A stretch of 64,000 bases of DNA from Scenedesmus sp. ARA3 (Eukaryota > Chlorophyta > Chlorophyceae > Sphaeropleales > Scenedesmaceae), in contig RWJK01001054.1 of assembly GCA_004335835.1 (NCBI GenBank), positions 1 to 64,000 of the forward strand, written 5' to 3'. Shown here piece after piece: positions 29,759 to 64,000 of this stretch. The position numbers and the translations under genes were made by a program. The notes beneath the pieces were generated by a model that saw nothing but the letters and a program-made list of their open reading frames with translations, was not told the DNA's origin and did not search any database. Each line of letters opens with the position of its first letter. Position 1 is the first letter of the stretch.

Positions 29759-29815
29759 CTACACCTCCATGGCCAGTGCGTCGTTGAATTCGCGCTCCAC
29801 TTTGCTCTGGCTCTC
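29759..29815 (-). repeat. Second copy of the carrier's last coding exon, in the 3' flank
   Basis: The copy encodes ESQSKVEREFNDALAMEV followed by TAG. It repeats the real C-terminus VSQSQVEREFSETLAMEV plus stop at 29868-29942. It starts downstream of the real stop, so it is presumably 3' UTR or an alternative terminal exon. The frame and stop are preserved. Confidence 0.75.
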
Positions 29816-29867
29816 AGGTGCTGCCAAACAGCTGACAGCGCTTCTGCTGCTGCTGCTGCTGCCAGAC

Positions 29868-33342: not shown

Positions 33343-34594
33343 TCAAGCTGTCTGTGCGCCAGCAGGCTTGAAGTCCAGCGCCAGGCCGTTCATGCAGTAG
33401 CGCAGGCCAGTGGGTGGGGGCCCGTCGTCAAACACGTGGCCCAGGTGGCCCCCGCAGGACTTGCAGCGCACCTCGGTGCGGGGCATGAAGAAGATGCTAT
33501 TGTCCGACGTCTCCACCACAGCGCCTGCAAAGTGAACAAAGAGGCGGGGCGGAGAAGGCAGGAAGCAAGGGTTCAGGGTTTGCCATGAAAATGAATCCAA
33601 CGTCCATCGTCACCACAACACCTGCGATGTGAACGGAGCGGCGGGGCGGAGATAGCAGGAAGCAAGGGTTTGAGGCATGGCTTAAAAAATATGCTGCTGT
33701 CCATTGTCTCCACCACAACACCTGCAAGTGATGGAGGAAAGCAGGGGCACAGGGCAGAAAGTGGCGGTGGACATGAAGGGGGCGCAAGGTGCAAGTTAAA
33801 GCTGCTCAGCAGATGCTGCACACCGTGCAGACTAAGATGAAATACATTGGGTGTCAAGCCATGGCAGTGTGTGCCTGGCGTGAGCATGGAGCATGCAAGT
33901 AAACGAGTCAGCTGACAGAGGAGCAGGCGCCCTGGCAACGACAGACCTGTCCCTCATCACGACAGGCGACAGAGTCATCGCTGTCACCCCACACAGCCCA
34001 GGTCTGTAGCAGCCACATGCTGAGACACTCAAAGACACAAAACAGTATAACAAACAATATAACAATTAAGCCCACCGTCAAGCGGCTCGTAGAAGGAGGG
34101 CCATCCCGTGCCGCTGTTGTACTTTGCCTCAGATGAGAACAGCGGGGTGCCGCAGCCCGCACACACAAACTGCCCGCGGCGCTTCTCGTCGTTCAGCGGG
34201 CTGCAGGGAGGCAAACAGTTGTGGCAGCAGCAATTGTTAGTCAACTCTCAGCTGCATTGAGATGCGTGTGCTGCTGGGCAGATCTACCATCCTTTGCTGA
34301 GCAAGCCAGGCTGCATTCTTCTCAAAAGCTGAATCTGATCAAAATCAAGGTATGTGCTCAGCTGGCAATGGCAACCTCAGCTTGGGTGTTGTGACAAATC
34401 AAATGGGCGCCACTGATGTGACTTCCAGCAGATCATTTGCTATGCTGCTTCTGGGTAGGCGGCAGCAGATGCAAGCTCTTGCACCCACCTGCTACGAGGC
34501 AGCTCCGTGCCTGCCTGCCGCAGGATGAAGTACTGCCCAGGTGACAGCGCCGCCTTCCACTCCACATCGCTGCGCACCACGCCCTGCAGCAGCC

Positions 34595-36617: not shown

Positions 36618-39413
36618 CTAGTCCTGCCAGACCACGGTGCGCCCCGTGGGTGTGACCAGCACGCGGTCGTTCACGTGCCAGCGCACCGCACGCGCCAGCA
36701 CCAGCCGCTCAAGGTCACGCCCCTTGCGCACCATGTCCTGCGGGACAGCAAATCAGCCACAATGTGTCAGTCGAGGGTGTTGATCCGGTGCTCACTACGT
36801 CTGTAAGTCAGTGTATGCTGAGTCACTTTAGGTTGCGACCAACGTGAGGGCCTTGCGCAGCATGTTCTGCAGCCAGCAATCACAACATGTGCGCATAAGA
36901 GTACATATAACTATAAATAAAATGATGCGCACCTGCACCCTGTGTGTGATGCTTGTGTGTCATGCTGTACGACAGTAACCCAGCCGCCCTCTGGCTTCAA
37001 CAAACATTCAAGAGGTGCAATCATCCACATTCGCACCTGCACGCTGTCCCTGTGTGTGATGCGCGTGATGTCCTGCTCTATGATGGGCCCCGCGTCCAGC
37101 TCGCTGGTGGCGTAATGCGCAGTGGCGCCAATGATCTTCACGCCACGCTCGTGCGCCCTGCGAGGATGAATACACACTTCGAATATTTATGTGCGTCGAC
37201 GCATCTGTACCGATGCACTTTGCAGGGCAAGGCCCGTCGCGGGCCTAGTCTGAAGTGTGTGCAGCCGCTGGCAGCTGCTGCTCCTGCTGCTGTCTGCCTT
37301 CCTTGGCACCAATGCAAGCACAGTTGCCGCAACCACCTTGCTGCAGCACCACCCCTGCACGAACACCTGCTGCCGCCGCGGCTGCACCTGCCTTGGCACT
37401 GGCAGCAGCTGCTGCTGTACACATCAAGCAGTGGAATAGCCGGCTGCTGCCCCCCTGGCCGCACCTGTGGTATGGCTTGGCTCCCTCGAATGCTGGCAGG
37501 AAGGAGTGGTGGATGTTGATGGTGCGGCCCCAGTTCTTCTCACAAAACTCCTCACTGAAGATCTGCATGTACCTGCAGCAGCAGCAGCAGCAGCAGCAGC
37601 AGAACGCCAGAGGCAGAAGGAGACGAGGGGTTACTTTGACATACATCAGGCGCAAGCAGATGCAGAACACGCTGCGTGCCGAAGCAGTGCCCTGCTTGCA
37701 GACTGCGGTGCATGCATGACCCATGACGTAACACAGCACGGCCTGCAGCTGCTGCTCAGGCCTCAGCGGCAGCCTCACAACCACCAACAACTGCTGCAGC
37801 TGCTGAGTCTGCGTCTGCGCCTGCTGCCTCTGAGCCTGCTGCTGCTGCTGCTGCTGAGTGTGCATCTGCATCTGCATCTGTGCCGCACCTAGCCAGCACT
37901 ATCAGGTCCACATTCGCCTCCTCAAGCACCTGCAGGCAGCAGCAGCAGCAACAGCAGCGCCTCAGCAGCTGGAACCCAGTGCGGTTGAAAAGTTGCAAGC
38001 AAGCTGTTCCCAGTTGCTACTCATGCTGCTCAAGCTGCGTTTCTGCAACGCCAGTGACGAGCATTCACCCCAAACGCAGCGCATGCGTCAGACCGACTGC
38101 AACCTCTGCAGCCAAGCCCTAGCGCACTGACTCACCCGCTGTATGGCCGCCTCCTGCTGCTGCTTGGCCGCCACCTTATCCACCCAAAAGGCAGCACATG
38201 CATCAATGCAACGGCAGGCACTTCAGTCAAGCTCTTATGTTACATCTCCTCGAGTACTCACCCGCTGTATGGCCGCTTCCTGCTGCTGCTTTGCCGCCAC
38301 CTTATCAATGTCTCGTCTGAACCCCAGGTGCTCAAAGTCCACGCCAAACATGCCCGCCACGTGCCCTAGATCCGAATGATTCGAAATGACGACCGGGATA
38401 TCGCAATGCAGCTCGCCGCTGCGCTGGCGGATGAGCAGGTCAAAGAGGCAGTGGTCCATCTTGGAGACGAGCAGCGCCATGCGCTTGCGCTGCGTGCGGT
38501 ACGAGATCTGCGGGGACAGGCAAGGATGCATATAGATGATTAGGCATACACAGTAAGCGGATTGTAGAACAAAGAGGAGGAAAAGAGTGTTGCATATGTT
38601 GCTTGGTGGTTGCCAGTGAAAGTGAAAGCAGCCTGCGCATTACATGCGCCTGCTGCAGCATGCAGCTGCTATTGCCTTGCCTGTGCACAGCTGGTAGTGC
38701 TGCGCCAGGCTGCTGCAGAGGCTCGAAGCAAAAGTTATTGAATGCACACACACATATCGCTGTTGCACGTGCCACAATGCTGCTGTCAACCAACCCACTT
38801 GTTGCAAGCAGCTGCCAGCACCTTCCAGCCCATCTGCATGCAGGGTGTAATAGCAACTGCTAAACATGCACGGAAGCTCTTACATTCCTCAGCACAAGCC
38901 GCAACGCTGCTGCCTGTTCAAACCTATTCAAAGAACAACTCAAATCCAATGAAATGCAAGTCAACCCACCTTCCAGTCCATCTGGTAGCGCTTGGCCAGG
39001 TCAGCCACGGCAGTCTCCAGCACTGCCAGGTTGCCCGTGCCCACCGAAATATCCTTGAAGTCAAAGTGGATACGCTGGAAGAAGCGGCTCGGCGCAATCG
39101 TCTCATCGCTGAACTGATCGCTCTGCAGGATGTTGCAGTTGAAGCCAAACAGCAGCTGCGCAAGCGCTGCAACTACACCCTTGGCATCAGGGCACTGGAC
39201 CAGCAGCACCCCAGTGGTGCCAGCAGCGCCAACGCCGTCTTCTTCAAGGCTGGAGAGTAGCTGCGGCGCTTGAGGAGCTGCTACTCGCGGCACGGGTGTT
39301 TGGCGCTGCCTGCTGCATGCTGACGCAGCTGCTGCTCTAGGTGCTGCTGCCGGAGTGCGGCTGCTGCTGCTGTTGCAGTGCCGCTGGCACTGCTGGCTGC
39401 GCATGAGCTGCAT
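36618..39413 (-). CDS. purU: Formyltetrahydrofolate deformylase (PurU type), organelle-targeted
   Basis: Six exons are read as 38970-39413, 38262-38507, 37889-37929, 37465-37572, 37037-37157 and 36618-36737, all in phase, giving 359 residues. The first ~60 residues are Ser/Ala/Arg/Gln-rich and look like a mitochondrial or plastid presequence. An ACT-like regulatory domain follows ([20 protein letters not shown]). After it comes the formyltransferase-fold catalytic domain, with [24 protein letters not shown], the motif [10 protein letters not shown] (Asn263, His265) and [15 protein letters not shown] (Asp301), which supply the Asn-His-Asp catalytic set. It ends [17 protein letters not shown]. 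It hydrolyses 10-formyl-THF to formate and THF. In plants the organellar enzyme keeps the folate pool balanced during photorespiration. Start choice: two in-frame Met codons at 39413 and 39404, of which the first is taken. Confidence 0.92.
36841..36866 (-). repeat. Acceptor-side partial copy of purU exon 6
   Basis: CTGCAG followed by AACATGCTGCGCAAGG resembles the real exon start GACATGGTGCGCAAGG (acceptor at 36737|36738), about 129 bp further upstream in the transcript. It is more diverged than most copies. Confidence 0.6.
36933..36952 (-). repeat. Donor-side partial copy of purU exon 5
   Basis: GCATCACACACAGGGTGCAG followed by GTGCGC repeats the end of exon 5 and its donor, with a small internal deletion. 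Confidence 0.65.
38134..38185 (-). repeat. Donor-side copy of purU exon 2, in intron 2
   Basis: About 50 bp repeat the end of exon 2 ([15 protein letters not shown]) and its donor GTGAGT, about 127 bp along the transcript. The frame is intact. Confidence 0.88.
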
Positions 39414-40991: not shown

Positions 40992-43900
40992 TCAGCAGCA
41001 GCCCTGCTGCCCTCAGCCAGTGAGCTGCAGCAGGTCATCGACAGCGCCGCACCAGCACCAGCAGCAGACGCTGCCCTCACGCCCGCTGCTGCTGCAGCTG
41101 CTGCCGGCCCACCCCCAGAGGCTGCTGCTGCTGCTGCTGCACCCCAGGACTATGAGCTCCTCTCAACAGCCACTGTTAGCACCCCCAACGCAGCAGACCA
41201 CAGCAGCAGCAGCAACAGCAGCAGCAGTAGCAGGCAGCAAAAGCACCTGGTCACTGGCTACAAGAGTCCCCCTGAGCTGACGTCCGCACCCTCAAAGGGC
41301 AAGGTGACCATTGCGGGGCGGCGGCTGGCCACTGGGGAGCTGGTCGGGGACGACGTCATCACGCTGGCGGATTACTCCGCGGCTGGCGAGGGCGCTGGCG
41401 ATACTGGTGACGCTGGTGATGCTGCTGGCATGCTGGGTGGCCCTTCTACAAGGATTGCTGGTGAGTTGTTTTTTATTCGATAACAGTAGGTGCAGCGCAG
41501 GCCCTGCTGCACTTTGTGGTGATCAAACGTACTGCGGTAGTCATGGTGTGTATGGCCGTTTGCCTTTATAGCTCAAGCGGCACCATTGCGGGGCGGCGGC
41601 TGGCCATTGGGGAGCTGGTGGGGGATGACGTCATCACGCTGGCGGATTACTCCGCGGCTGGCGAGGGCGCTGCTGCTGGTGACGCTGGTGACAGTGGTGC
41701 CGCCATGCTGGGCGGCTCCTCTGCACTGCATTCAGGTGAGCTGGTCGGGGATGACGTTATCACGCTGGCGGATTACTCCGCGGCTGGCGAGGGCGCTGCT
41801 GCTGGTGACGCTGGTGACAGTGGTGCCGCCATGCTGGGCGGCTCCTCTGCACTGCATTCAGGTGAGCTGGTCGGGGATGACGTTATCACGCTGGCGGATT
41901 ACTCCGCGGCTGGCGAGGCCTTTACTGGTGGTGGTCTTAATAGTGGTGGTGGTGGTGGTGGGATGCTGGGCGGCGCCTCCACAATGTATTCAGGTGAGTG
42001 AGTGAGCCGCAGTAGGTGCAACTGCACCTGATGGGGAGGATTAGTTTTCATATGGTGCACTGCGGCACACTTTGCACACCAACACCAGGCCCAGGCGGCA
42101 GCGCCCATGGCACAGCATGGATGGCGCACGGATGCCTGTTGACACGGTGCTGTTTGGTTGTTGCGTGCCTGGTTTTTGGGCAGCCTTGCAGCCTTGTTTT
42201 GTCTGCTCCTGTGCAGAGGCGGCCCTGCTGGATGAGGCAGAGCGTCTGCAGGCGCACCATCCTCTCCAGCAGGGCCGCCTCTGAATGGGTGCGTTGCTTG
42301 TTACTACACTTTTAGAACTCTTTTCAAACACTGTGGAGAATAATCATGATGAAGCGCAGCATAATCTCTAGCAGCGCCTCCTCAGAATGGGTGCATGGCT
42401 GTTTTGGCCTGTTTTCAAATGCCGCGGGAATTTCAGCAGGTTGGCAATCTGTTAGCCTTCTCCCGGAGTGTTGCATGACTATTGAGGGGGAGAGGCAGCC
42501 TCATAACTGTGCCGGTTCAGAGGCGGCCCTGCTGAAAAAGAAGCCGCGGCTTCAAACGCGGCCTCGGCTTCAGCGGCGTCTCCTCTGAAGGGGTGCATTG
42601 CCCCAGGGGTGCATTGTTTCAACATATTGCTTCAGGCAGGTTGTCACAAGTTGTCAATAAAATCAACACAGCGAGTCTGTCTACCAGCTTGGCAAGCTGC
42701 TAGCCTTTGATATTACAAGGTCTGTTGTGTTGCTGCAAGCCTGTTTGTTGGCAGTTGTCCTGGCGTCCTGCCTGGTCACATTGTGTCCTCTTTAGAGGCG
42801 GCCCTGCTTTCGATGGATGGATGTGCCTGACACGCACAGCATCTGCGTCAGCAGCGCCATCTCTGAAGCAGTGCATAGCTGTTGGCCTGTCTTCACACAA
42901 AGCAGGATGTGCTATCATCTTATAAGCTACATGCCTACCACATCGGTGGCTAGTAATTAATCGTACTGTGTTTTGCTTAGAGGCGGTCCTGCTAAATGTG
43001 AAGCTGTACGCGGCAAAACACGTGCTGTGCACAGCCCACATTCAGTAGCTTCGTCTTTGAAGGGGTGCATTGCTGTCGACCTGTCTGCACGAGCAGCAGG
43101 TTTTGTTATGAGTTGTGTGGTGGATTACTCCGCGGCTGTAGGGCGCTGGTTTTGATACCGGTGATGGTGGTGTTGGTGGTTGGGGTGCTGGGCGGCTTCT
43201 TCGGTGGGGTGGCCCTGCTGGTTGATGCTGGCGCGTCTTTATGCGCACCATCATCTCCAGCAGCGCCTCCTCTGAATGGCTGCAGTGCTGCTTTTGGCCT
43301 GTTTTCAAATGCGGCGGGCGTGCTACCAAGTTGGCAAGCTGCTGGCGTTGTACAGCGGTGTCTACTGCGGTGCATGACTGTTGTGGTGCACAGGCAGCCC
43401 TGCTGGAGTTGAAGTTGTGCCCTCATGAAGCTGTGTTCATGCGGTGCACTGCCACACACATGTTGCACAGGAAGATGGGTCCCTGGCTGCAACTCTGACA
43501 CATGCTGGATGCGTGTTTAGACAGTGTGGTGTTGTTATTGCTTGCCTGTTTTTGGGCAGCCTTGCTGCCCTCATTATGATGCCCGTTCAAAGGCAGCCCT
43601 GCTGATGGTGGTGGGGCGCCATCAAGCGCAGCATCAACTTCAGCAGCGCCTTCTTTGAATGATTGCACTGCTTTTGGCATGCAGATTTACTGCACCCAAT
43701 GTACTTAGGCAGCATTTGACTTCATGTTGTTTACTGCGGCACACATTGCACTGGATCTCCGAGCCCCGGCGGCAATGCCCATTGCACACGGATGTGTGTT
43801 GGCACAACGCTGCTGTGTTGTTGCGTGCCTGTTATTCAGACAGCCTTGCTGCCTTGATTGCTGTTCCCGTGCAGGGTTGGCCCTGCTGGGTCTTGATGGC

Positions 43901-45889
43901 GTGTGTCTAAGCGCACCATCATCTCCAGCAGCGCCTCCTCCGAATGGCTGCATTGCTTGTCGTCACTTCTGGAACGCTTTTGAGACACTTTTGGAACATC
44001 ATCATGCTGGCTCGCCTCATCGTCTTCAGCAGTGTCTCCTCTGAATGGCTTTGTTGTTTGATATCACACTGCTGAAACTCTTTTGGAACACTTTTGGAAC
44101 ATCATCACGATGAAGTGCAGCATCATCTCCAGCAGCGCCTCCTCTGAACGGGTGCAGTGCTGTTGAGGCTTGTCTTTGAATTCGGCGGGAATTGCTACCA
44201 GATTGGGAAACTGCTAGCCTTCTACTGCGGTGTTGCACGACCATTGCGGTGCAGAGGCAGGCCTGCTGATGATGAAGTTTGCTTCATGGGTTGTCTTCAT
44301 GAGGTGCACTGCCACACACGTTGCACATGCACATGTTTTTTCCGGCTGTGAGGCAGGCACATGCTGGATGCGTGTTTAGGCGGTGTTGTTTTGTTATTGC
44401 TTGCCTGGTTTTGGGCAGCCTTGCTGCCGTCATTTGCACGCCCCTTCAGAGGCGGCCCTGCTGAAGGTGAAGTTGTAACACGAAGTGCAGCATCATCTCC
44501 AGCAGCGCCTCCCCTACATGGACGCATTGCTGTTCTGGTCTGTCTTTAAGTGCGGCGGGAATTGCTACCAGATTGGCAAACTGCTAGCCTCTACAGCGGT
44601 GTCGCCTGACTATTGCAGTGCAGAGGCAGCCCTGCTGGAGATGAAGTTGTGTTTCCTAAAATTGTCTTCATGTGGTACACTGCCACATACGTTGCACAGG
44701 AAGATGGTTTCCTGGCTGCAACTCTGGCACATGCTGCACGTGTGTCTAGAGAGTGATGTGGTGTCATTGCTTACCTGTTTGGGGGGGCAGCCTTGCTGCC
44801 CTCGTTAGTTTGTCTGTTCAGAGGCGGCCCTGCTGATGATGATGAGGCGCCGTCAAGCGCAGCATCAACGTCGGCAGCGCCTTCGCTGAATGCGTGCATT
44901 GCTGTTGGCATGCGGCCAAACGCAGCGAGTTTTTCTGACAGCTTGGCGCGCTGCTAGCTTACAACAGCGGCGTTGCAGCCGCTAACGCGGGCCATGGGAT
45001 CACACGAAGAAGAAGCATTGCACGCTGCTGCTGCTGCTGCTGCTGCTGCTGCCCCTCGACTTCTTGCTTTGCTTGTCATGTGCTTCATCCCCCACACACA
45101 CACCGGCACAAGCTCAAGCAGCAGGCATGTGGGGACGAACGAGACAGCAGCAGCAGCCTGCCTCTCCACCACAATTATTGCAACCATGCCTGCTGAACAT
45201 CCACCGCAGCAATGTGATGTGCAGCTGCTGTAGCCCTTTCATGTTCACGCCAGCAGCACCTTGCTTATTGTGTGTATGCCTTCTCGCAAATTTGATGTCG
45301 TCTGCAGGAGGCCCTGCCCGTGCCCAGGTACCCCTGGCCCTGGCACCTCTCCTCTACAACCCCCACAACCTTCAACTTCAACATTCACTGCAGGGCTGTG
45401 CTGTGCAGCGGAATTTAGCCATGTCCTGTTAACACCAGCAGTAACCTCGCACTGATGTGTGCTTGTTGGTTGTTCATGCTACATGCAGGAGTGACCGCCC
45501 GTGCCCAGGCACCCCTGGCTGTATCAACTGTCGAGACAGCAGCAGCACACCTCGCCACCACCATCCAAGAGACCACCAAGACAGCAGACCAGGTCTACAC
45601 CACCCACGCGGCAGCAGCAACAGCAGCAGCGGCAGCAGCAGCACTGCACGGCACGCGCGGCCTGGGTGTCCGCACTGCTGCTAATGTAGCAGAGGCAGCT
45701 GTTGACCCTGCTGCTGTTGTTGACTTTGACTCTAGCTGCTTGAACGTGCCTGCCAGCAGCACGCAGCAGCAGCTGCAGCAGCTGGCAAATCCTGCTGCTG
45801 CTGATGCCAGCAGCAGCAGCAGTGCCACAGGCGGTTTTGCAGCAGTAGCATCTGGCTGCTGCGGACATGTGGCTAGCTTGGAGCCGTTG

Positions 45890-45920
<31 letters not shown>

Positions 45921-46092
45921 CAGCAGGTGATGACATCAGCGCCCCGCCAGGTCATGTGCTGCAGGAAGACAAGCAGCAGATTGCAGAGATACTTGAGCGG
46001 CTGCGCTCAGCAGGGCAGCTGGCAGGACCTGAAGGCGCAACAACTGCACCGGAAGCCGCACCTGCAGCAGCAGCAGCAGCGGATGAATCGGC

Positions 46093-46125
<33 letters not shown>

Positions 46126-48244
46126 GGATGGTAGCAGTGTAGGGGGCACAGGTTTAGTGCCAGCACCAGAGATAGTGTCGGCATGCGACCAGGGTTCAGC
46201 ATCAGGCTTTGCTACAGTGGCGACTGGCCCAGGACGCACCAGCAGCAGCACTGCATCAGACACTGCTGCTGCTGCTGGTACTGCTACAGCAGCAGCAGCA
46301 GCAGGTGATGGTGGTGGTGATGGGGTTGTGGTGGCGCTGGCTGCACACGATGCTGCTGCACGTGCAGCAGCAGTAGCAGGGGCGCTGGTGCACCTGGGCC
46401 GGGGTGTGGCTGCTGCTGCTGACTTGGCTGACGTGGCTACAGACCCTGGCGTTGCACTGGATGCTGCTGCTGCTGCACGTCAGCAGCAGCAGCAGCAGCA
46501 GCATGAGGTGCATGGTGCTGCTTCCTACCTGAGGGACAGCACAGCAAGCTCTGAAGCAGAACAGGAGCCGGCAGCAACAGCAGCAGCAGCAGGGTCGGGC
46601 ACATCTAACACTGCAAGCACGCCAGCAGCAGCAGCAGCAGACACATCCGGCAAGGCAGGTGTTGCTGCACTCGCTGACCCATTTGCCGCAGCAACAGCAG
46701 CAGGTGCAGCAGCAGGCACTGAGCCAGTGCCTGGCCAGCTGGAGCCTGCCTGGGGGCAGCTGGTTGACGTGGCACCTGCTGCTGCTGCTGCTGCTGCTGC
46801 TGCACCTGAAAGCACCAGAAGCAGCAGTAGTGCGGGTAGCAGCATGGCCAGTCCAGGCAGGCCTGGTAGCAGCACATCAGGTGCTGCTGCTGCTGCTGTT
46901 GCTGCTGGCATTGAGGATCCGACAGATGAGCAGATCGCAGCAGCAGCGAAACTGGCAGCAGCAGTGGCAGCAGCAGGTGAAAAGCTGCGCAAGGAGGGCT
47001 CAGGGGCAGCAGCAGCAGCAGCGGCATCACCATCAGCAGCAAGGGGTGAAGTTTTAGGTAGCCCCAAGGGTGTTGCTGCTGCTATGCGGCTGGCAGCTTT
47101 TGAGCCTGCTTGGATGTCAATGGTTGATGTGGGCCCCGCTACTGCACCATCACCCAGCAGCAGCACAGCAGCTGATGCGAGTGCACCACAAGCCGCAGTA
47201 GCAGACCCAGCAGCAGCAGCAGAGGCCGGGGTACCAGGTACTTCAGCAGCAGCAGATCCAACAGGCCGCCCAGGCAGTGCAGCAGCAGGCACAGGGCTGA
47301 CAGGAATGGCTGCTGCTGCTGAGCTGGCAGCAGTGGAGCCTGTCTGGATGTCACTGGTGGATGTGGGCCCCTCTACTGCATCCACAGCAGCAGATGGTAG
47401 CGCAGCAAGTGCTGCTGCTACTGTCCCTCAAGAGGCCCTAGCAGCAGCAGCAGCAGCAGCAGGGTTTGTGGACCCTGGCAGCAGCAGCAGCAGCAGGGCT
47501 GCTGCTGCTGCTGGCAATGCAGACGGTATCACTGATGCTAGTCCCCCTCCTAGTAGAGAGCTGGCAGCAGCTCTTGTTGCTGCTACTGTTGCTAGTGAGG
47601 AGAGAAGGTTCAGGAGGCTACCCACCCCTCCAGCCACCCCACCCCCTGCAGGAGAGGGCAGCAGCAGCAGCAGCGCGGCGAGTGATGCACAGGGGGGCGG
47701 CAGCAGCGGCTTTGTGAGTGACGTCAGCAGCAACGGCAGCAGCAACAGTGTGGATGAGTTTGTGGACCCTGCTCTGCCAGAGACTGCTGCCGCTGATGAT
47801 GATGATGATGGTGCTGATAGTCAGCCTGCAGCTGCTGCCCAGACAACAGCAGCAGCAGCAGCAGCAGCAGGATCAGGTGGGTTGGGGTCGGGTGCCCCAC
47901 CTACTGCTGCTGCCACTAGGGCCATCTTTGACTTGGTGCATCAGGCAGTGCAGCAGCAGCAGCAGCAGCAGGTGTCTGGCCAGGCAGGCGAGCTGCGCAC
48001 TTCTGTGTTTGGAAGCCTGCAGGAAGCAGACTTGTTGTCAGCGGGTGACTTTGTAGGAGAGCCAGCAGCAGCAACAGCGGCAGCAGCGCCAGCGCCTGCA
48101 TCGGCACCTTCTCCTGCACCTGCTTCATCCAGTGAGGCAGCAGCAGCAGCAGCAGCAGCAGCAGTGGATGCAGGGCCTGAAGTGCTGCCAGCACTGACGC
48201 CGGCAGGCAGTGAGGCGATGGTGACGCCACCTGTAACAGCAGCA

Positions 48245-48284
<40 letters not shown>

Positions 48285-50255
48285 CCGAAGCACCTGCAGT
48301 GCTGCCAGCACTGACACCAGCAACATCAGGTGACACAGAACCAGCAGACCCGCCAGCAGCAGCAGCAGCGGTAGATGCTGCTGTTGCCCAGGCTGCTGCA
48401 GCCGGCAATGCGCTGCTTATGCAGCAGCGCCTACTGCAGGGCAGCAGCGCAACCCCTGAACAGCAGCAGCAGCAGCAGCAGCATGGTGGCAGCGGCAAGT
48501 CCAGCAGCACTGCCAGCCTGTGTGGTGACGCTGAGGAGCTCAACCCTGCCCTGCTGGTGACACCCTCTGACTCAGCATCTGAGTCAGCAGCAGCAGCCGC
48601 AACTCCAGAGGCAGCAGCAGCAGCCCTGCAGCCATTTGCGCCTGCAGTAGAGCTGGCGGCTGCAGCAGAAGACTCCACCACAGATACAGCCACACCACCA
48701 CCACCAGCAGCAACGGCAGCAGCAGCAGCACTGCCAGATGCGGCAGCAGCAGCAGCACTGCCAGATGCGGCAGCAGCAGCAGCAGGCCGGGCCTTCCTGC
48801 AGGGTGCTGCTGCAGCGCAGCTGATCCAGGCAGGCAGTGAGGGAGTAGCCAGCAGCGGGGCAGCAGACCATGTGCTGTTTGGACCCAACCCCCTGCCTGT
48901 GGATGTGCCGGCAGCAGCAGCAGCAGCACCACCAGCAGCAGCAGCAGTAGCAGGTGGATCGGATCCGGCATCAAACCAGGGTACCCACATCACTGCTGAC
49001 ACAGCAGCACTGGAGGGGACTAGCTACCCAGCTGGAGCAGCAGCAGCTGGCAGCAGCAGCAGCAGCAGCAGTGGCATCACAGCCATGGGAGCAACTTCAC
49101 CTCTGCTAGCGTCAGGCGCTGGCATTGCTCCTGTATCTTCTGCCATCAGCAGCAGCAGCAGCAGTGCGGCACAACTGCCAGACTCCACAGCTGCAGCAGC
49201 ACTATCAGCTGTGCCTGCCTTAGCCTTTGGCTTTGCTGCAGCGCCAGCACCAACAGCAGCTGCACTGCCCAGTTCAGTCTCTTTGGGGCTGCCAGCACCA
49301 GCAAGTGGCCTGGCTTTTGACAGCAGCCCAATGCTAGCTGGTGCTGCAGCAGCAGCAGCACTAGCAGGAGTGCCAGATAGCTTGAGTGGAGCAGCTTTAC
49401 CACAGGCTGCAGGTTCAGCAGCAGCAGCAGCAGCAACGGATGCTGCTGTAGCAAGTGCTACACCTCTGGGTGCAATGTGCAGCGGTACCGCAGTGCCGCT
49501 GCCTGCGCCTGCACTGCTGATGGGCGGTGGCAACACTGCTGCTGCTGCTGCTGCTGCTCTGGCTGATCCTGCAGCTGCTGCTGCCCTGCACGGTGTGCCG
49601 GCAGTCAGCATTGGATCAGCAGCAGCAGCAGCAGCACCTGGAGATGTTGCACAGGCAACGCTGCTGCCGGCAACTAGCAATGTCAGCGGCAGCAGTGGTA
49701 CACAGCAGATGCTAGACCCCTTTGCAGCTGCTGCATTGGCTGGCATGCCTGATGCAATGCTGCCAGCCTCTGGCATGGTCGGCAGCAGCAGCAGCAGCGG
49801 TGTGCCACAGATGCTAGGCACCTCTGCAGCTGCTGCACTGGCTGGCATGCCGGCCTTTGCAGGACAGGCAATGCTGGCCAATGCAGCAGCGGCAGCAGCA
49901 GATGCAGCGGCTGCAGCTGCTGCTGAAGGTGACACAGACACTGCAGCGATGATGAATGAGGCTGCGGCTGCTATGTTCAGTGGAGCAGCAGCAGTTGCAG
50001 AGGCCGACTCAGCAGCGGCAGCAGCAGCCGCAGCAGCAATGCCGGTAGCGACAGCAATGCAGGAGGATCCCACACCATCTCCAGCAGCAGCAGAAGTGCT
50101 CGAGCTGTCAGAAAGTGATTTGCCGCTGGTGCTTCCCATCATGGCTCCTTCTGGAGTGGCAGTAGCGGAGCCACTGCCTGATGTGGCCTTCAGCAGCAGC
50201 AGCAGCAACGGCGGCAATTCCTCACACACCCCTGCAGCGGCAACCTTGGACCCTT

Positions 50256-50311
<56 letters not shown>

Positions 50312-51856
50312 GGTCCGCAGTATGAGAGTTCAGCAGAGGAGTTGATGATGCAGGGTATGGCGCTTTCAAACACCTTTGATCCGCTGCTGGTACAGTTGGC
50401 GCTGCAGCCGCAGCGCGCTGGATCCTCACCCTATGCACTGCAACCACTTTCTGCAATCTTGCCAGCAGCGGCAGCAGCAGCAGCAGCGGAAGGGCAAAGC
50501 AGTCCGCTGAGTCCTGCAGCAGTGGCAGCAGCAACGGCAGCAGCAGGCGTCACACCTCCAGCGTGGTTTGTGGGCTTACCTGCGGTGCTAGAGGGTTCAG
50601 CAGAAAGCGGGAGCCTCACACCTGACTCAACTGCAATGCAGCCGGTAAACGGTGCAGCAGCTGCTGCAGCTGAGCTAGCTGCTTCGGCTGCTGCAGTAGA
50701 GATCGTGGCGCAAGATGCGGCAGCAGCGATGGCAGCAGCAGCAGGCTTGGAGTCGGCAGAGGCAGCGGCAGCAGTAGCTACTGCGGAGGCGGCTGCTGGG
50801 CTTGCTGCTGCTGTTGGTGCTGAGAGCTTGGCAATGCTAGGTGGTGCGGCTGTGCCCCTGGCAAGCGCCTCAGAGGAGGTTTTGCACAGGTGGGTGGGAT
50901 TTTGGTGACGCCTGTACCTCTGTGTAAGAGCCCCCCATCAGAGATTGACATCTGAACATGCACCATGCCCCTGGCGAGCGTCTCAGAGGAGGTTTTGCAC
51001 AGGTGGGTGGAGCGCTACAAAGCAGTGCTGCTCCACTGTGTCTACTCCCTCGTTACTTTTGTAGTGTGGTGAAGACAGTCTGGAGAGCTCACCAAGTGCT
51101 GAACTGCATGCAGGAGCACCACAGGATGTTCCTGCATCCCTGAATTGCACCAGCTGCAGTTCTTCTTTTGGGAATGCACACATCCAGTAGTCATTCATGC
51201 ATTCAAACACTGCGATGGCTGAGTGTATCTGTATGGGAATGCAAACAGCCTATTGTTGACGCTCTGAGTTTCTGTTATGTCTGCCTGCCCCTGCAGCAAC
51301 CTGGCAGCGGCGGCGGCCGCGCTAGATCAGCTGGGCTTCCCCCTGGACCTGGCCAGGCAGCGCACCGACAGCATCAGCCTCACTGCAGGGCTGTCGGCAG
51401 CACCAGGAGAGCTGGATGATGCAGCAGCAGCAGCAGGAGGAGATGGTGGCGGTAGCAATGGAGCAGCAGGCGCACAGGCATCCGCAGGCAGTGAGTCAAG
51501 CAAGGCCTTTCCAGGGTTTCATGGAGCAGCACCAACAGGAGGTGGAAATGCACCAACAGACAATGCGCTGGTGGCACGAGATGCAGCAGAAGCAGCGAGT
51601 GAGTTGGTGCCATTGCTGGCAGCAGAGGAGGGGGCAGGCCCCAGCTCAGGCGCAAGTGGCAGCAGCAGCAGCAAGGCCAGCATGGGTTCTGCTAGTGCTG
51701 TTGCTTCCAAGATCCCAGCAGCAGCAGAAGGTGTCAGTGGTGGTGCTGCTGCTCCTCACGACCTGCACCGCGCAGACACCACCTCTGGCTACTTTTTGGT
51801 CAACTCTGCTGACACAGACGCTGCCTTCAAGCGACAGCAGAGCGGCGAGCAGCCAG

Positions 51857-57076: not shown

Positions 57077-58862
57077 TCAGGTCAGGTCAATCGTTTCAAC
57101 CTGCTGCTGCTGCTGAGCCTGCGCCAGAGCCGCCTTGATCTCCTTGTACTCAGCATACATGGCAGCCCACTGCTGCTGCTTGTAAGCCGGCAGCCGCTGC
57201 CCCTGCTGCCGCAGCTGCTCCTTCAGTTTATCCCCAGCCTGCAGCGCCTTCTTCAGCACATGCTTGCGCTGCTGCAGCTGCGCCATTGTTGGCACGTGCC
57301 CGTCCAAGGTTGTCACACCAGGAGGGGCCTGCCTGTCTACCGCTGCTGCTTGAGAGGTGCTGCTGCTGCTCTGATGGCTGCCGCTGCTAGCACTGCTAGT
57401 GCTACTGCTCTGCTTGAAGCCCTGCTGCTGCTGTTGGGGAGGTGGTGGTGGTGGTGGCGGTGGCAGCTGCCGCTGCTCCAGCCTCTGAGCAGCTTCTGGC
57501 GGTGGGGGCGGTGGCGGGTACCGCTGCTGCTGCTGCTGCTGGGGAGGCCTAGGGGGTGGGGGCGGTGGCGGCACTCCTTGCTGCTGCCACTGGCTGTTGC
57601 CAGGGAAGCTGTAGCCTGCTGCTGCTGCTGCTGCTGCCGCACTACCTGCTTGTGGTTGCTGCTTTCCTGCAGTTGGCCTGCTGCCACCTGCGCTGCTTGG
57701 CTGCAGATCCAATGCAGGCGCCCTCAGCGGCTGGCAAACAGCAGCACCTTGCTGCTGCTGCTGCTCATCCCAGCTGTGCTCACTGTTGGTGATGTCAGCA
57801 AGAGCATGAGACCTGGGCTCAACAACCACTCCAGCTGCAGCTGCTGCTTGCCCGAGCTGCTGCTGCTGGGGCTGCTGCTGCTGGGGCTGCAGCTGCTGCA
57901 GCTGCTGCTGCGCTGCCTCCAGTGCATCCTGCAGCTCCAGCTGTCGGGCCTTCAGCTGCAGCAGCAGACAACAGGCGCGTGCAAAAGCAGTTGCAGCATC
58001 GAGATTATAAGAGTTGTTGATTGTTGCCCGCTGCCGTACGTATGGCGCTAGTCATGCCAGTAACAGATGCGCATTGAAACTCTGAAATGTAACTTCCAGC
58101 AGCACCTCTGCAGCCCCATTTGATCAAGCACATCAACCAGCCATTCAGCGAATCTTCAGCGGCGGCTGTGCTGTCAAGTGCTGCTGCACAATGCTGAAAA
58201 AGCAGGCACTGCAGCCATCACCAAACAAAGTCAACGCCCTGTGCCGCACCTTGCTGCCGCCGTCAGGCAGGCGCGGCCCCACCGTAGCCAGGTCAGTGCT
58301 CACACGGCCCAGCTGGTACTGCAGGTGCTGCACCTCCGCCTGCAGCCTCTCCTGCTGCTGCTGCTTCGATTGCTGCTGCTGCTGGTGCTGTGGGCTTCCG
58401 CCTGCTGCCCCCTTGCCAGAAGCAGCAGCAGCGCCAGGGCGGTTGCTGCTGCTTGCAATGTTCAGTGACGACATCATGTTGCTGAGCTCAGCTGCCGATG
58501 GCCCTGCTGATCCTGCTCCTGCGCCTGTGACCGGCCTCGATCCGCCACGTCCATACCCACTGATCCCCAACCCTGCTGCTGCCGCTGCTGCAGACCCCGG
58601 CACCAGGTTTGGGTTTAGGTGTTTAGGGTCCAGCTGCAGGTGCTTCCCTTCAGGGTCCTGGTGGCTAAACAGCATGCCGTGTTCGCTGGTGCCTGCACAG
58701 AGTGCATGTGCCTCCAGCCACGCCACATGGCTGGAGACTGCTGCCAGCTCAGCGCTGCGGGAGTGCTGCTGGGTCAGCAGCTGCTGCGTCTCGCTGGTGC
58801 GCAGTGCTGCGGGGTCCCATTTGAAGAGCTCGTGTAGCTCCTGGTGCGTGAAGTAGCTATGG

Positions 58863-58899
<37 letters not shown>

Positions 58900-61800
58900 C
58901 GGGAACACATGTACAGCGTAAGGGTTTGTGGAAGCAGCAGCACGACCAGAGGGAGCAGCTGCAGTGTCACAGAAGCAGGATAGCTCGTGCAGCTCCTAGG
59001 GCGTGAAGTAGCTACGGGCGGCAGCAGTAAACACAATTACAGTCGAAGCATAACAGCAGCAGCAGCAGCAGCAGCAACAAAGATTGAGTGACATACGAGG
59101 GTCCATGACAGGGGCAAGGAAGAAAGCATCCAAAGAACTCATGGTGCGCAGTGCTGCGGGGTCCCATTTGAAGAGCTCATGCAGCTCCTGGTGCGTGAAG
59201 TAGCTGAGGTGTGAAGGGTGATCAGTAACACACAGTGTGTTAGCAGCAGCAGCAAAAGCAGTGTTAGACGTACTTGACATGGCACAGATAAACACGGGAT
59301 CCCAGCAGAAGAGGAATGCGGGGTCCATTTGAAGAGTTCATGCAGCTCCTGGTGCGTGAAATAGCTACGGGCAGCAATTGCACGGAGCGTGTCTGCAGGA
59401 TGAATTGTAATTTGTGTTAGCAGCACAGAGAGTAGCAGCACCCTGAAAAGAAGCAGACGTGACATCAGCAATACATCCTGCAAGCACACCCTGCTGCGCT
59501 AGCCCATGCCTAATCATCCTTGGTTAAGCCGCATGCATGCAATGCGCTGACCCGGCAGCACCATGTAGTCATCGCTGTGTGCCCCACCGCAGCTGCACGC
59601 CCTCCTCCATGCCTGCCCTGCTGAGCCCACCCCCAACCACTACATACGTCCCAGCAGAGCAATAACTTCAGGAAAACAAGCAGCGACCTCAGCTTGCTCA
59701 CCGCAGCTGCACTCCCTCCTCCATGCCCGCCCTGCCCAGCTTACCACAACTCGCCCATTCCAGCAGCAGCAGAAACCCAACGTCTACAAACACGACAGCA
59801 GCAGGTGTGGCTCACCGCAGCTGCACGCCCTCCTCCATGCCTGCCCTGCTCAGCCCACCACACACTCGCCCGTTTCAGCAGCAGCAGAAACCCAACATAT
59901 ACAAACACGACAGCAGCAGGTATGGCTCACCGCAGCTGCACGCCCTCCTCCATGCCTGCCCTGCTGAGCCCTCCCTTGAAGACCTGCTTGCGGTAGATCT
60001 TCTCTTCGACCGTGCCACACGTCACCAGGCGGTACACCACCACATCACGTGACTGCGGTACAATGTGGCAGGCAGTACAGCAGTACAATGCTTATGGAGT
60101 TGTGGATCTTCTCTTCCACGGTGCCACACGTCACCAGGCGGTACACCACCACGTCACGCAACTATAGTACAATGTGACAGACAGTACACCAGTACATCAA
60201 GCATGAGCTGCCGTGAGCCGCAAAACATGGGAGGACACCCGAGGGTGCTTCGCGCAGAACCAGTACAGCAGGCAAAGCAGTTTCGCATGCATACATGTTG
60301 GCCACCAACTCATCCCCTCCCACGCCACGCATAGCACCACGGGAATACGAACACAACTACTGGTCAACCTATACACGGAGACCGCCACACCTGGCCAATC
60401 CTGTAGGCCCTGTCCACGCTCTGGTTGTCAGTGGCGGGGTTCCAGCTGGGGTCAACAATCACCACACGGTTGGCGGCAGTCAGCGTCAAGCCCAGTCCAC
60501 CAACCTGTAGAATTGAAGCAGCAGCAGCAGCAGCAGCAGCAGCAGATGTTTGTGACAGCAGTGGCAGATTCCAGCTGGGGTCCACAATGACCACGCGGTT
60601 TGCGGCAGCCAGCATGAGCCCCAGCCCGCCGACCTGCAAAAATGAAGCAGAAGCAGAAGCAGAAGCAGCAGATGTTGGTGACAATGGCATCAGTGACAGG
60701 AGGGGTCCACGATCACCACACGGTTGGCGGCAGTCAGCGTCAAGCCCAGCCCGCCGATCTGTTGAAGCAAAGCAGTAGCAGCAGCAGCAGATTGTGATGT
60801 AAGTGGCAGGAGGGGTCCACAATGACCACACGGTTGGCAGCGGTCAGCGTGAGGCCCAGCCCGCCAACTGCAGCAGTGTGCAGCGTGTGCAGCCGCACCT
60901 GTGTCGTGAGCAGGAACAGAGGCATGGCGCTGCCTGCCGCCTGGAAGCGCTCCACACACCCGACTGATCCTTCCACACACATTTGGCCAAGCAATGCTTG
61001 AAGGTGCGCAGCTTTGCAACTTTCATGCTAGACTGTCCATCGTTACATTTGACAACCCGCATTTACAATAAATTTAATTTGTTGCCCACAAACGCACCTG
61101 TGTCGTGAGCAGGAACACAGGGATGCTGCTGCCAGCCGCCTGGAAGCGCTCCACCTCCGCCTGCCGCGCGTCAGTTGAGGACATGCTGCCGTCGATGCGG
61201 CAGAAGGACCAGCCTCGGGCAACAACGGCGGCCTGCGACAGCAGCAGAAGCGACACATGCTGTATCAGCAACAGGCACAGGACATGCTGCCGTCGATGCG
61301 GCAGAAGGACCAGCCGCGAGCAACAACGGCAAACCTGCAGCAGCAGCAGCAGCGGCAGCAGCAGCAGCGGCAGCAACAGCAGCAGCAGAGGCACAATCTG
61401 TGTCAGCAAGAAGTCATGCTGCCGTAGGTGCGGAGGAAGACCAGCATCGCGACACCACAGCATCCTACGGCAGCGGCAGCAGGACAAGCTGTTTCGGCAC
61501 CAATACATGCTGTCATGGACGCGGCAGCAGGACCAGCTGCGCGTCACCGCAGCAACCTGCAGCAGCGGCACCACCGCCAGAAGACAGCGGTGTCCTGTCT
61601 CAGCACCGACAGGGACACTCAGCAGCCAGCAAAAGACAAGCTGCTTACCATGCGGGCAGGAAGGCAAGTGACGCGCTGTCACAACGCCCGCGCTTGTGGC
61701 TTCTCCGACAGGCAAAACTTAAAAAGCAAGCCGCAGCCACACCACCTTTCACTCTGCCCACCTGCAGTATGTCCAGCATGACCCTGCTCTGGCTGAACGC

Positions 61801-64000
61801 CAGCATGCGCTTGCCGCTCCTTCGACAAACTCAAGCAGGAAAGAACACTGAGACTTTTCCAGCCGCCCGCACCCACCTGCAGTATGTCCAGCATGACCCT
61901 GCTCTGGCTGAAGACCAGTGTGCGGTGCCCCCCAGCCACCAGCCCCTTCAGCAGGTCAGCCACAAACAGCGCCTTGCAGGAGGCCTCGGGCCCCTTGGTG
62001 CGGATGCCTTCTAACAACCGATCCTGCAGCCCCTCGGCTGCTGCCCAGGTCATGAACTCCTCACTGAAGCCTACGGCACGATGCAACACAAAATCAGCAG
62101 CACAGTGTAAGTGCCAGCACAGCGTGAATTTATGTATATGGTTTGGGTGGTGGCGCCTTGCAGGAGGCCTCGGGCCCCTTGGTGCGGACGCCTTCCAGCA
62201 GCCGATCCTGCAGCCCCTCGGCTGCCGCCCAGGTCATGAACTCCTCACTAAAACCTGCAGCGCAGCGCAGCACAAAATCAGCAGCACAGTATAAGTGCCA
62301 GCATAGCGTGAATTTCTGTATAGGGTTTGGGTGGTTGCTCCTTGCAGGAGGCCTTGGGCCCCTTGGCGCGGATGCCTTCTAACAGCCGATCCTGCAGCCC
62401 TTCTGCAGCCGCCCAGGTCATGAACTCCTCACTGAAGCCTGCAGCGCAGCGCAGCACAAAATCAGCAGCACAGCATAAGCGCAGCATAGCGTGAATTTCT
62501 GTATGGGGTTTGGTGGTTGCGCCTTGCAGGAGGCCTCGGGCCCCTTGGTGCGGATGCCTTCCAGCAGCCGATCCTGCAGCCCTTCTGCTGCTGCCCAGGT
62601 CATCCTCACTGAAGCCTGCGGCACAATGCAACACAAAGTGAGCAGCTCAAAGTGAGTGCAAGCATACTGGTGAACTGATGGTTGATGGTTTGGATGGTTG
62701 CCCATTGCACAGATGGCTATGGGCCCCTTGGTGCGAATGCCTTCTAGCAGCCGATCCTGCAGCCCTTCGGCTGCTGCCCAGGTCATGAACTCATCACTGA
62801 AGCCTGCAGAGTAAACAGCAATGCATAAGTGCAGCCATAGCAATGCAGAAAAGCTGAGCTTAGCCCATTGATGGCTGATAATGTAGCTGGCTAAGTGCAG
62901 TCTACAGTTGTGTGCCCTCAATTCAGCACCGATTGTGTGACTTCATGCAACCAGCAGTAGCAAGAGAGCTGCACAGTAAATAACAGCGTGCAGGCTCACC
63001 CGCATCATCCAGCGATGCAGCCACTGCGGCGCGGCTGCGGGCCGCTTTGCTGTTGAAGCCGCCGCCGCTGCCGCTGCTGCCATTGTCTGACTCGCTACCG
63101 CTGCCAACCTCGTCGCCACTGCCGCTGTTTTCAACACTGTCATAACCGCCATTTTCATCATCGTCATCATCCACGATAAAGTCGTCCATGCTGCTGCGGC
63201 GCTGCTTGCTGCCCTTGCCGCTGTGCTTGGACTTGCCCTGCTGCCCACGCCTGCTGGCTGCAGCGCAGCAAGAGGAAAACAAAGTGCCACAAACAAGCGG
63301 TGGCAAGGGCAGATGCTGTCAGCAGGACTACAGGCAGCACAAGCTGCAATGGTTGCAGCAGGCACAAGCTCTGCATGCGTAGCTAGCTAAGGTGGTACTG
63401 TCCCATCTAATGCACACAGTTGACTAGCACCTCATCATCAGCAGATGCACATCGGAGAGACTCCAAGGCCCCAAAGCCGCAAGCCCGAACCAGCCGCACC
63501 TGTGAGCACCAGCTTGGTCGCGCGCTCGCTCAGCAGTGCCGGGTGGTCGCACACCTTCTTCAGCACCGTCAGTGCAGCCAGCGGCGACTTGCTGCTGTTC
63601 AGCGCTGCTTTCACGGCATCAGAGTGCAGGAAAGCTTCATATATATGCCGCTGCAGCGGCTGCAGGCGCAGCCATATGACTAGGTCATGCTTGGTACCCA
63701 TCATAGCAGGCACAGCAGACCCTCCAACTGTTGTTGATCCTGCTGCTGCTGCTCCTGCTGAACTCCCGCTGCTGCTGCTGGCCGCACTTGCTGCTGCCAC
63801 CACAGTGCCTGAACCCCCGCCACTGCTGCTGCTGCCGGCACCCGCTGCACTGCTGCTGCCGCTGCCACTGCCAAAGACCTCCTTCTTCTCCCTGCGCAGC
63901 ATAAACGGCGCCACAATGCGCCGCAGCTCTGCTGCCTTTGCTGCTCCGAGCTCCCGCACCCGCAGCCCTGCGCTGCGGTCCTGCCCTGCTGCAATCGGCT
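57077..64000 (-). CDS. SNF2-family DNA translocase, ERCC6L/PICH (CHR24) type; 5' half beyond the window
   Basis: Eight exons are read as 63500->64000, 63000-63257, 61877-62070, 61098-61232, 60391-60504, 59931-60052, 58250-58856 and 57077-57955, all in phase, giving about 936 residues. The N-terminal ATP-binding lobe lies off the right edge. Visible in order are [15 protein letters not shown]; an Ala/Ser/Gly insertion; [32 protein letters not shown]; and an acidic linker ([12 protein letters not shown]). Helicase lobe 2 follows with [83 protein letters not shown] and [15 protein letters not shown]. The YFTHQELxELF segment and the later [21 protein letters not shown] match the ERCC6L/PICH and plant CHR24 group rather than other SNF2 proteins. 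It should be an ATP-driven double-strand DNA translocase. PICH acts on mitotic ultrafine bridges. The tail is Gln/Pro-rich, ending VETIDLT. Every exon from the third to the seventh has partial copies in neighbouring introns. Confidence 0.9.
58865..58895. repeat. (CAG)n tract before the acceptor of SNF2 exon 7
   Basis: About ten CAG units, CUG on the transcript, stand immediately before the TCCATAG acceptor of the exon ending at 58856. Confidence 0.9.
58985..59370 (-). repeat. Three acceptor-side copies of SNF2 exon 7
   Basis: The exon start [20 protein letters not shown] recurs near 59143-59205 (almost identical), near 59310-59365 (one base lost) and near 58982-59016 (short, with a stop replacing one Gln). 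Copies at about 58982 and 59310 keep GTAG before the coding part. Confidence 0.88.
59587..59850 (-). repeat. Three donor-side copies of SNF2 exon 6
   Basis: The exon end encoding [14 protein letters not shown] with its donor CTGCG|GTGAGC recurs at about 59815-59855, 59701-59740 and 59587-59625, roughly 115 bp apart. Donors read GTGAGC, GTGAGC and GTGGGG. Confidence 0.9.
60110..60160 (-). repeat. Acceptor-side copy of SNF2 exon 6
   Basis: [20 protein letters not shown] behind a CTATAG acceptor repeats the real start [20 protein letters not shown] (acceptor at 60052|60053), about 110 bp upstream in the transcript. Confidence 0.9.
60571..60868 (-). repeat. Three acceptor-side copies of SNF2 exon 5
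   Basis: The start of the conserved motif V/VI exon ([20 protein letters not shown]) recurs at about 60571-60628 ([20 protein letters not shown]), 60703-60760 ([20 protein letters not shown]) and 60811-60868. Each has an acceptor (TTGCAG, CAACAG, CTGCAG). Frames are intact. Confidence 0.92.
60898..60955 (-). repeat. Donor-side copy of SNF2 exon 4
   Basis: [19 protein letters not shown] followed by donor CAG|GTGCGG repeats the real end [19 protein letters not shown] (donor at 61098|61097), about 200 bp along the transcript. Confidence 0.9.
61280..61560 (-). repeat. Three acceptor-side copies of SNF2 exon 4
   Basis: The exon start [17 protein letters not shown] recurs as [18 protein letters not shown] (about 61282-61333, acceptor CTGCAG), as [17 protein letters not shown] (about 61505-61555, acceptor CTGCAG), and as a worn copy near 61420-61445. 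Confidence 0.88.
61764..61823 (-). repeat. Donor-side copy of SNF2 exon 3
   Basis: [12 protein letters not shown] with donor CAG|GTGGGC recurs about 113 bp downstream of the real exon end at 61877. Confidence 0.9.
62153..62803 (-). repeat. Four acceptor-side copies of SNF2 exon 3, ~184-bp period
   Basis: About 100 bp of the exon start ([20 protein letters not shown], then GIRTKGPEA) recur four times upstream of the real exon. Exon-start positions are 62254, 62438, 62615 and 62803, against 62070 for the real one. Spacing is 184, 184, 177 and 188 bp, and every copy has a CCTGCAG- or CCTGCGG-like acceptor context. One copy has a short deletion in the FMT region; the others are open. Confidence 0.93.

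Follow-up and report, generated by a model that had tools for sequence, protein, structure and literature searches.

Internal gene duplication is reportedly ubiquitous, and some of the duplications considered by Gao and Lynch in 2009 are said to include splice sites. The nearest known kind of event to the one described here is intron gain by tandem duplication. In the reported case of a potato RdRp gene, the duplicated unit crosses an intron-exon boundary and supplies the splice signals, and one duplication gives a new intron (PMC4974935). A Drosophila study describes novel introns arising from tandem duplication of coding sequence with a proto-splice site (PMC2891723), and introners are elements that copy themselves into many genes (PMC9860276). 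We analyzed a 64,000-nt stretch of the genome of the green alga Scenedesmus sp. ARA3 (the window), which comprises bases 1-64000 of contig C741 (RWJK01001054.1; 124,856 bases) in an assembly of 87.3 Mb and 1,567 contigs. Toward its end lies an SNF2 gene whose introns hold 28 partial copies of the gene's own exon ends, arranged in arrays next to the splice junctions from which they derive.

Like the duplications of Gao and Lynch, those found here are frequent and lie within genes; unlike them, they involve exon ends only, follow one fixed geometry and occur in many copies. Tandem duplication inside genes is also what the alga shares with the potato case (PMC4974935) and with the cases in a review (PMC3443670), but the alga lengthens introns by arrays, with up to five extra copies and at many junctions. 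As in Drosophila (PMC2891723), duplicated coding sequence comes to lie in an intron; there, the duplications make new introns, whereas the alga has arrays at junctions that probably existed already. The likeness to introners (PMC9860276) is a repeated sequence tied to introns. An introner-like element, with the same sequence in many unrelated introns, was not seen for the one array searched, that of exon EF, whose DNA matched the assembly at five places, none of them outside its own gene. Tandem duplication within genes is already known, and we did not find this scale and pattern described in the open-access literature (most subscription journals were outside the scope). An earlier sequence-only reading of the window had known of no named description of so systematic a pattern.

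The gene lies on the minus strand, terminates with a last exon, after EJ, at a stop codon at 57077 and extends beyond the window end to about 67.5 kb of the contig. We take it to be ERCC6L-like, after the human protein. The gene model was built from open frames and GT-AG sites. Upstream of the window, exon EA ends at 66685 (its start, placed by eye, is near 67480), EB spans 65548-65148 and EC spans 64634-64534. ED covers 63500-64175 on the contig (63500-64000 in the window) and EE covers 63000-63257. The joined frame is open throughout from EB to EJ. Pfam SNF2 matches fell on ED and upstream of ED; a Pfam scan of two raw stretches gave no match.

To look for copies, we ran each of the ten exons from EA to EJ against the gene region with blastn. 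CAG/CTG-rich matches were set aside by eye (including EJ against 57876-57913 at 3e-6), as were two weak single matches (EC, 15 nt, E = 0.004; EG, 28 nt, E = 0.005). There were 28 junction copies, 17 of exon 5′ ends and 11 of exon 3′ ends, all on the gene strand. The 5′-end copies (EB 3, EF 4, EG 3, EH 3, EI 1, EJ 3) lay upstream of the full exon in all cases, and AG was present in 17 of 17. The 3′-end copies (EA 5, EB 1, EF 1, EG 1, EI 3) lay downstream in all cases with GT in 10 of 11, the sole exception being the outermost EA copy, which has AT. By side, this geometry fits 28 of the 28 copies. Blastn against the gene region found no junction copies of EC, ED or EE, the last having low-complexity matches only. 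The sequence-only reading had covered EF to EJ, its exons 3 to 7, and had listed four plus one, three plus one, three, one plus three, and three copies (5′ plus 3′), all in one orientation and with acceptors upstream and donors downstream. The self-comparison of 57-64 kb that it had proposed, run together with blastn, returned exactly these counts, and the E-values (2.6e-6 to 5e-42) exclude chance. Its description of the copies as mostly open in frame holds only in part: in alignments read by eye, 12 of the 28 carry a stop or frameshift.

Full exon EF (61877-62070; acceptor TAG, donor GTGGGT) is preceded by four 5′-end copies that keep AG: the outermost at 62721-62805 (94% identity), one with a 5-nt deletion at 62519-62630, one at 62337-62440 (92%) and the innermost at 62153-62256 (93%). 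Its 3′-end copy, with donor GTGGG, lies at 61757-61809. EG (61098-61232) has 5′-end copies at 61505-61570 (outermost, 73%), 61415-61479 (frameshifted, 76%) and 61279-61349 (innermost, frameshifted, 90%) and a 3′-end copy with donor GTGCG at 60894-60955. The three 5′-end copies of EH (60391-60504) occupy 60812-60868 (outermost, 86%), 60702-60766 (89%) and 60559-60648 (innermost, 80%). For EI (59931-60052), one 5′-end copy (60102-60176, 88%) is accompanied by three 3′-end copies with donors at 59801-59859 (innermost), 59696-59735 and 59577-59632 (outermost, GTGGGG). EJ (58250-58856) has 5′-end copies at 59317-59376 (outermost, frameshifted), 59142-59205 (97%) and 58982-59026 (innermost, with a stop codon). 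Beyond the window, the first intron contains the five 3′ copies of EA and the three 5′ copies of EB, and the 3′ copy of EB holds about 157 nt of exon.

The copies are adjacent as well as same-strand, with a short spacing of 91-257 nt between neighboring units (median 116.5 nt), as in tandem duplication. Unit lengths inside arrays are near-equal (EF 177-188 nt; EI 115, 114 and 114 nt), and in the self-comparison EF units matched over their full length (61969-62619 against 62153-62807, 86%). By eye, two types of unit seem to alternate in the EA array. Of the 5,827 bases of nine introns, 3,793 (65%) belong to extra units; without them, these introns would shrink to 31-358 nt. A gap of just 31 nt (60868-60898), which starts GTGCGG and ends GCAG, separates the sole EG 3′ copy from the nearest one of EH, its first 5′ copy; the outermost copies look as though they retain a very short ancestral intron. 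Whole-exon copies with both acceptor and donor were not found by blastn in the ERCC6L-like gene, and whole tandem exon duplication was rejected.

The pattern is not peculiar to this one gene: the same geometry was met in other SNF2 genes and in chaperonin genes. Elsewhere, 60 SNF2 exon matches were examined in 20 stretches, and 24 of them had copies: 26 5′-end copies upstream, 15 3′-end copies downstream, nine internal, three whole, and no end copies on the wrong side. Five further matches were antisense. The pair C1018:235887/236384 was counted from both sides, giving one double count within the 26 and 15, and the nine internal matches stand outside those counts. One of the internal matches, C1529:46856 (downstream), ends before the real donor and is an exception to the rule that copies hold a junction. 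The three whole matches all concern one apparent SNF2 match, C782:19906-19995, which is itself a 5′ junction copy; the apparent match C1018:236384-236557 is probably a junction copy as well. Among chaperonins (TCP-1 family), seven of nine exon matches in four small stretches had copies, a rate biased upward because the stretches were picked partly for doubled matches seen there. These comprised nine 5′ copies upstream, 12 3′ copies downstream, two internal and none on the wrong side. Local direct repeats covered 9.4% of bases in 21 stretches (0 to 47% by stretch), and at E 1e-6 none of these stretches had local inverted repeats. One chaperonin gene stretch did show an 80-base self-inverted match (L044:899-978).

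Six further repeat pairs in the window adjoin junctions, as read by eye from repeat comparison and without a gene model. On the minus strand, they are a 3′-junction pair in another gene at 30231-30461 (36 nt identical, including the donor), a second 3′-junction pair nearby at 30787-30957, a 5′-junction pair at 31144-31318, an overlapping repeat pair with acceptor-like GCAG sites at 33514-33725 that is probably a 5′-junction array, and a 3′-junction pair in another gene at 38130-38306. The sixth, a 3′-junction pair at 50853-51010, is in a plus-strand gene. An open frame at 30823-31338 (minus strand) resembles, by eye, a mitochondrial carrier protein and has both kinds of junction copies nearby, and 29759-29925 holds a tandem copy of a possible last coding stretch with its stop codon. 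No local repeats were detected at E 1e-6 in contig bases 4-28 kb and 68-82 kb.

We assign a probability of about 0.7 to repeated tandem duplication of junction-spanning units of about 90-260 bp, followed by exchange among units, with the copies unused and decaying. Such units would duplicate head to tail, repeatedly and in many genes. A unit consisting of an intron end and an exon start would leave an extra exon start upstream with its acceptor, and one consisting of an exon end and an intron start would leave an extra exon end downstream with its donor. We infer that the orphan splice sites are ignored and that exon definition picks the full exon, because an acceptor and a donor occur together only on the copy that is continuous with the remainder of the exon. 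The arrays would grow and be partly homogenized by unequal exchange or gene conversion among units, for which one array gives the best support, so that exon parts would stay near the functional exon while intron parts drift. The untranslated copies would then be snapshots of past exon states.

Copies and full exons differed mainly at third codon positions, which were 3 to 4 times as often affected as first and second positions, and the differences were mostly synonymous. Differences at first, second and third positions were 37/535, 20/536 and 96/532 in the ERCC6L-like gene, 48/850, 39/849 and 127/840 in other SNF2 genes and 19/455, 17/458 and 76/460 (4.2%, 3.7% and 16.5%) in chaperonins; pooled SNF2 divergence was 6.1%, 4.3% and 16.4%. 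The changes comprised 121 synonymous, 87 missense and 6 stop in other SNF2 genes and 75, 36 and 1 in chaperonins. Six stops beside 87 missense changes is no shortage relative to a rough estimate of 1 in 18. In the 23 arrays with at least two copies, changes private to the full exon were distributed 5:0:20 by codon position and those private to the outermost copy 18:19:24. In the 15 arrays with at least three copies, changes shared by several copies (5:4:36) contrasted with those private to one copy (27:19:45; Fisher p = 0.0008), as expected if old variation had passed through the functional exon and new variation had not. Variation of older date thus looks filtered by coding constraint, more recent variation much less. 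Taken with the broken copies, this indicates that the copies are dead, yet derived from or refreshed by the functional exon at several times. Base-specific mutability as a source of the third-position excess was unsupported by base-specific rates. Second-order selection, in which a mutated copy is harmful through conversion into the exon, appears too weak as a source of the coding-like bias by rough reasoning: exchange at about ten times the mutation rate would suffice for the observed divergence, and at usual population sizes such exchange is too infrequent for this kind of selection.

The similarity of intron flanks between neighboring units was expressed as z values, from the functional exon outward; unrelated acceptor flanks score up to z 3.57. 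In the EF (16.4, 20.4, 5.9, 1.4), EH (7.3, 7.8, 0.5) and EI 3′ (19.3, 1.6, -1.0) arrays, flank similarity fades toward the outer units and exon-part similarity does not. Contrary to this fading, the EA flank is similar out to the outermost unit (8.8, 3.0, 3.5, 2.3, 7.7). Flanks are kept in the single EI 5′ copy (z 9.7) and in the pair 38130/38256 (z 5.8), and values are weak for EB (4.8, 0.9, 2.3), EG 5′ (1.9, 0.2, 1.5) and EJ (3.1, 2.1, 2.4); EB 3′, EF 3′ and EG 3′ gave 1.8, 2.3 and 0.3. The donor coordinates used in this test were 1 to 4 nt off for the window arrays at 30 and 38 kb, three in number. Neighboring units are clearly homologous in exon and intron part alike for the inner EF, EH and EI 3′ units, for the EA units nearest to and farthest from the exon and for the EI 5′ copy. 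Such homology is faint or missing at EG 3′ and in the outermost units of EF, EH and EI 3′. In most of 17 further donor cases read by eye, similarity extends no more than about 5-20 nt past the donor; some matches span a whole unit. By the four-gamete test, failure of which points to exchange, 11 of 15 informative site pairs fail in the EF exon part (8 of 10, by hand count, without one site beyond the end of one copy) and 5 of 15 in the intron part; elsewhere, failures were 2 of 3 in a chaperonin array and 1 of 6 in EA.

The third-position excess and the loss of flanks in the outer units of several arrays suggest that units exchanged sequence or that the functional exon was sampled more than once, and we infer that most of both arose by exchange with the functional exon or by its being copied repeatedly. 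Duplication across exon-intron boundaries, as the sequence-only reading had proposed, is partly supported: it accounts for the geometry, the single orientation, the unit spacing and the intact full exon, and leaves the third-position excess and outward flank loss aside. The neutrality that it had also assumed agrees with the stops, the frameshifts and the near-even codon positions of changes private to outermost copies, but not with the overall third-position excess.

A number of observations weigh against duplication followed by exchange. Third positions differed 3.15 times as often as the others (39 arrays of the ERCC6L-like and other SNF2 genes; 95% 2.38-4.25, bootstrap by array), and 0 of 2,000 replicates were at or below 1.7, our own expectation for a neutral copy beside an exon accepting only synonymous change. 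The excess is thus above that expected for neutral copies. This ratio leaves out C1533:107412, whose match overruns the donor, and C1018:236384 and C782:19906, as themselves copies; the counts of change types kept C1533. The bias also remains among changes private to inner copies (21:17:45 in the arrays with at least two copies). In the pairs 30231/30426 and 30787/30896, nearly identical exon parts stand beside unrelated intron flanks, which is unlike the outcome of a recent simple tandem duplication. The 11 donor copies have an ungapped identity to their parent near 0.94 in the exon, which stays high through intron position +5, and of 0.09-0.64 from +6. The EF four-gamete failures may partly be homoplasy. 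All 11 arrays in the ERCC6L-like gene adjoin a junction, where random placement expects 7.8 (P = 0.019); the excess over that expectation is small, and some arrays lying wholly within introns may have decayed beyond detection. Kinesins had copies at 0 of 21 exon matches (six genes, stretches of 3 to 3.5 kb), which makes the spread patchy. Three of these points, namely near-identical exon parts with unrelated flanks, the bias among inner-private changes and the lack of purely intronic arrays, are not well covered and leave room for a junction-tied copying process. It is a speculative idea, which we doubt, that exon edges and their splice sites are multiplied by copying tied to the splice junctions themselves instead of by random tandem duplication. 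Dead copies would then stay close to the living exon through exchange with it, and introns would store a layered record of synonymous states that may feed variants back.

Less likely again is a diverged functional source, with the copies dying afterwards; if the lineage were hybrid or highly heterozygous, for instance, the template could have switched to the other homologue. This would explain third positions at 16.4% divergence beside 6.1% and 4.3% at the other two, as well as the unrelated outer flanks in some arrays. It would require an allelic divergence above that of most known species; no second locus was found in the assembly for the two gene pieces searched, and the flanks of inner units show clear homology with the functional intron (EF z 16-20, EI z 19). 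An assembly artefact, in which divergent haplotypes or strains were strung together and the copies are alleles of exon edges, seems slightly more improbable still. The differences are indeed mainly synonymous, as between alleles, and exon edges are similar while introns often differ, but broken copies in 12 of 28 cases, near-even outermost-private changes, the regular unit lengths of arrays with as many as five copies at one edge and the absence of any N from contig bases 52001-82000 speak against it. Moreover, 501 bases of exon ED matched the assembly over their full length at a single place. The 49 other matches among those listed were partial and confined to the low-complexity part of the piece, and a second haplotype of it was therefore not seen.

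We give least credence to the copies being used, as alternative acceptors and donors of regulated or coding transcripts, with selection keeping exon parts and splice sites. The third-position bias would fit such use, and AG or GT is kept in 27 of 28 copies, which is very unlikely (P 0.0002) if neutral divergence is 18% per site; at the divergence of the exon parts, 10% to 4.5% per site, keeping so many sites is no more than mildly unexpected (P 0.02 to 0.28). The stops and frameshifts of the 12 broken copies point the other way, as does the number of stop changes, not rarer than expected beside missense, and use of a copy would bring in spacer, where stops are common by eye. Junction-spanning duplication with exchange among units, which accounts for anatomy, geometry, decay and the greater part of the synonymous excess, remains the explanation that we prefer.

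Elsewhere in the window, 925-1642 is a minisatellite with a unit of about 69 bp, and 41307-44977 and 45419-50905 hold many direct repeats and a 1829-codon open frame with internal repeats. In C1428:148375-157903, kinesin matches show the same domain part twice, 7-8 kb apart, which suggests a tandem gene pair. The ratio of observed to expected CpG ranged from 0.44 to 0.84 among nuclear stretches of the assembly. The assembly carries an rbcL gene on a stretch of 29.7% G+C, and its best solved relatives are Rubisco entries headed by 1gk8, presumably from Chlamydomonas, in keeping with a green alga.

The introns of the helicase gene and of several other genes are largely old copies of their own exon ends. 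This is a concrete and still visible route of intron growth, in which about two thirds of the bases in nine introns are extra units. The copies will mislead gene prediction in such genomes. Each junction with copies offers a natural set of near-identical decoy splice sites without a partner, on which exon definition in a green alga can be tested directly. An array is also a record of the states through which its exon has passed in turn, and it allows synonymous change and exchange among units to be read within a single gene.

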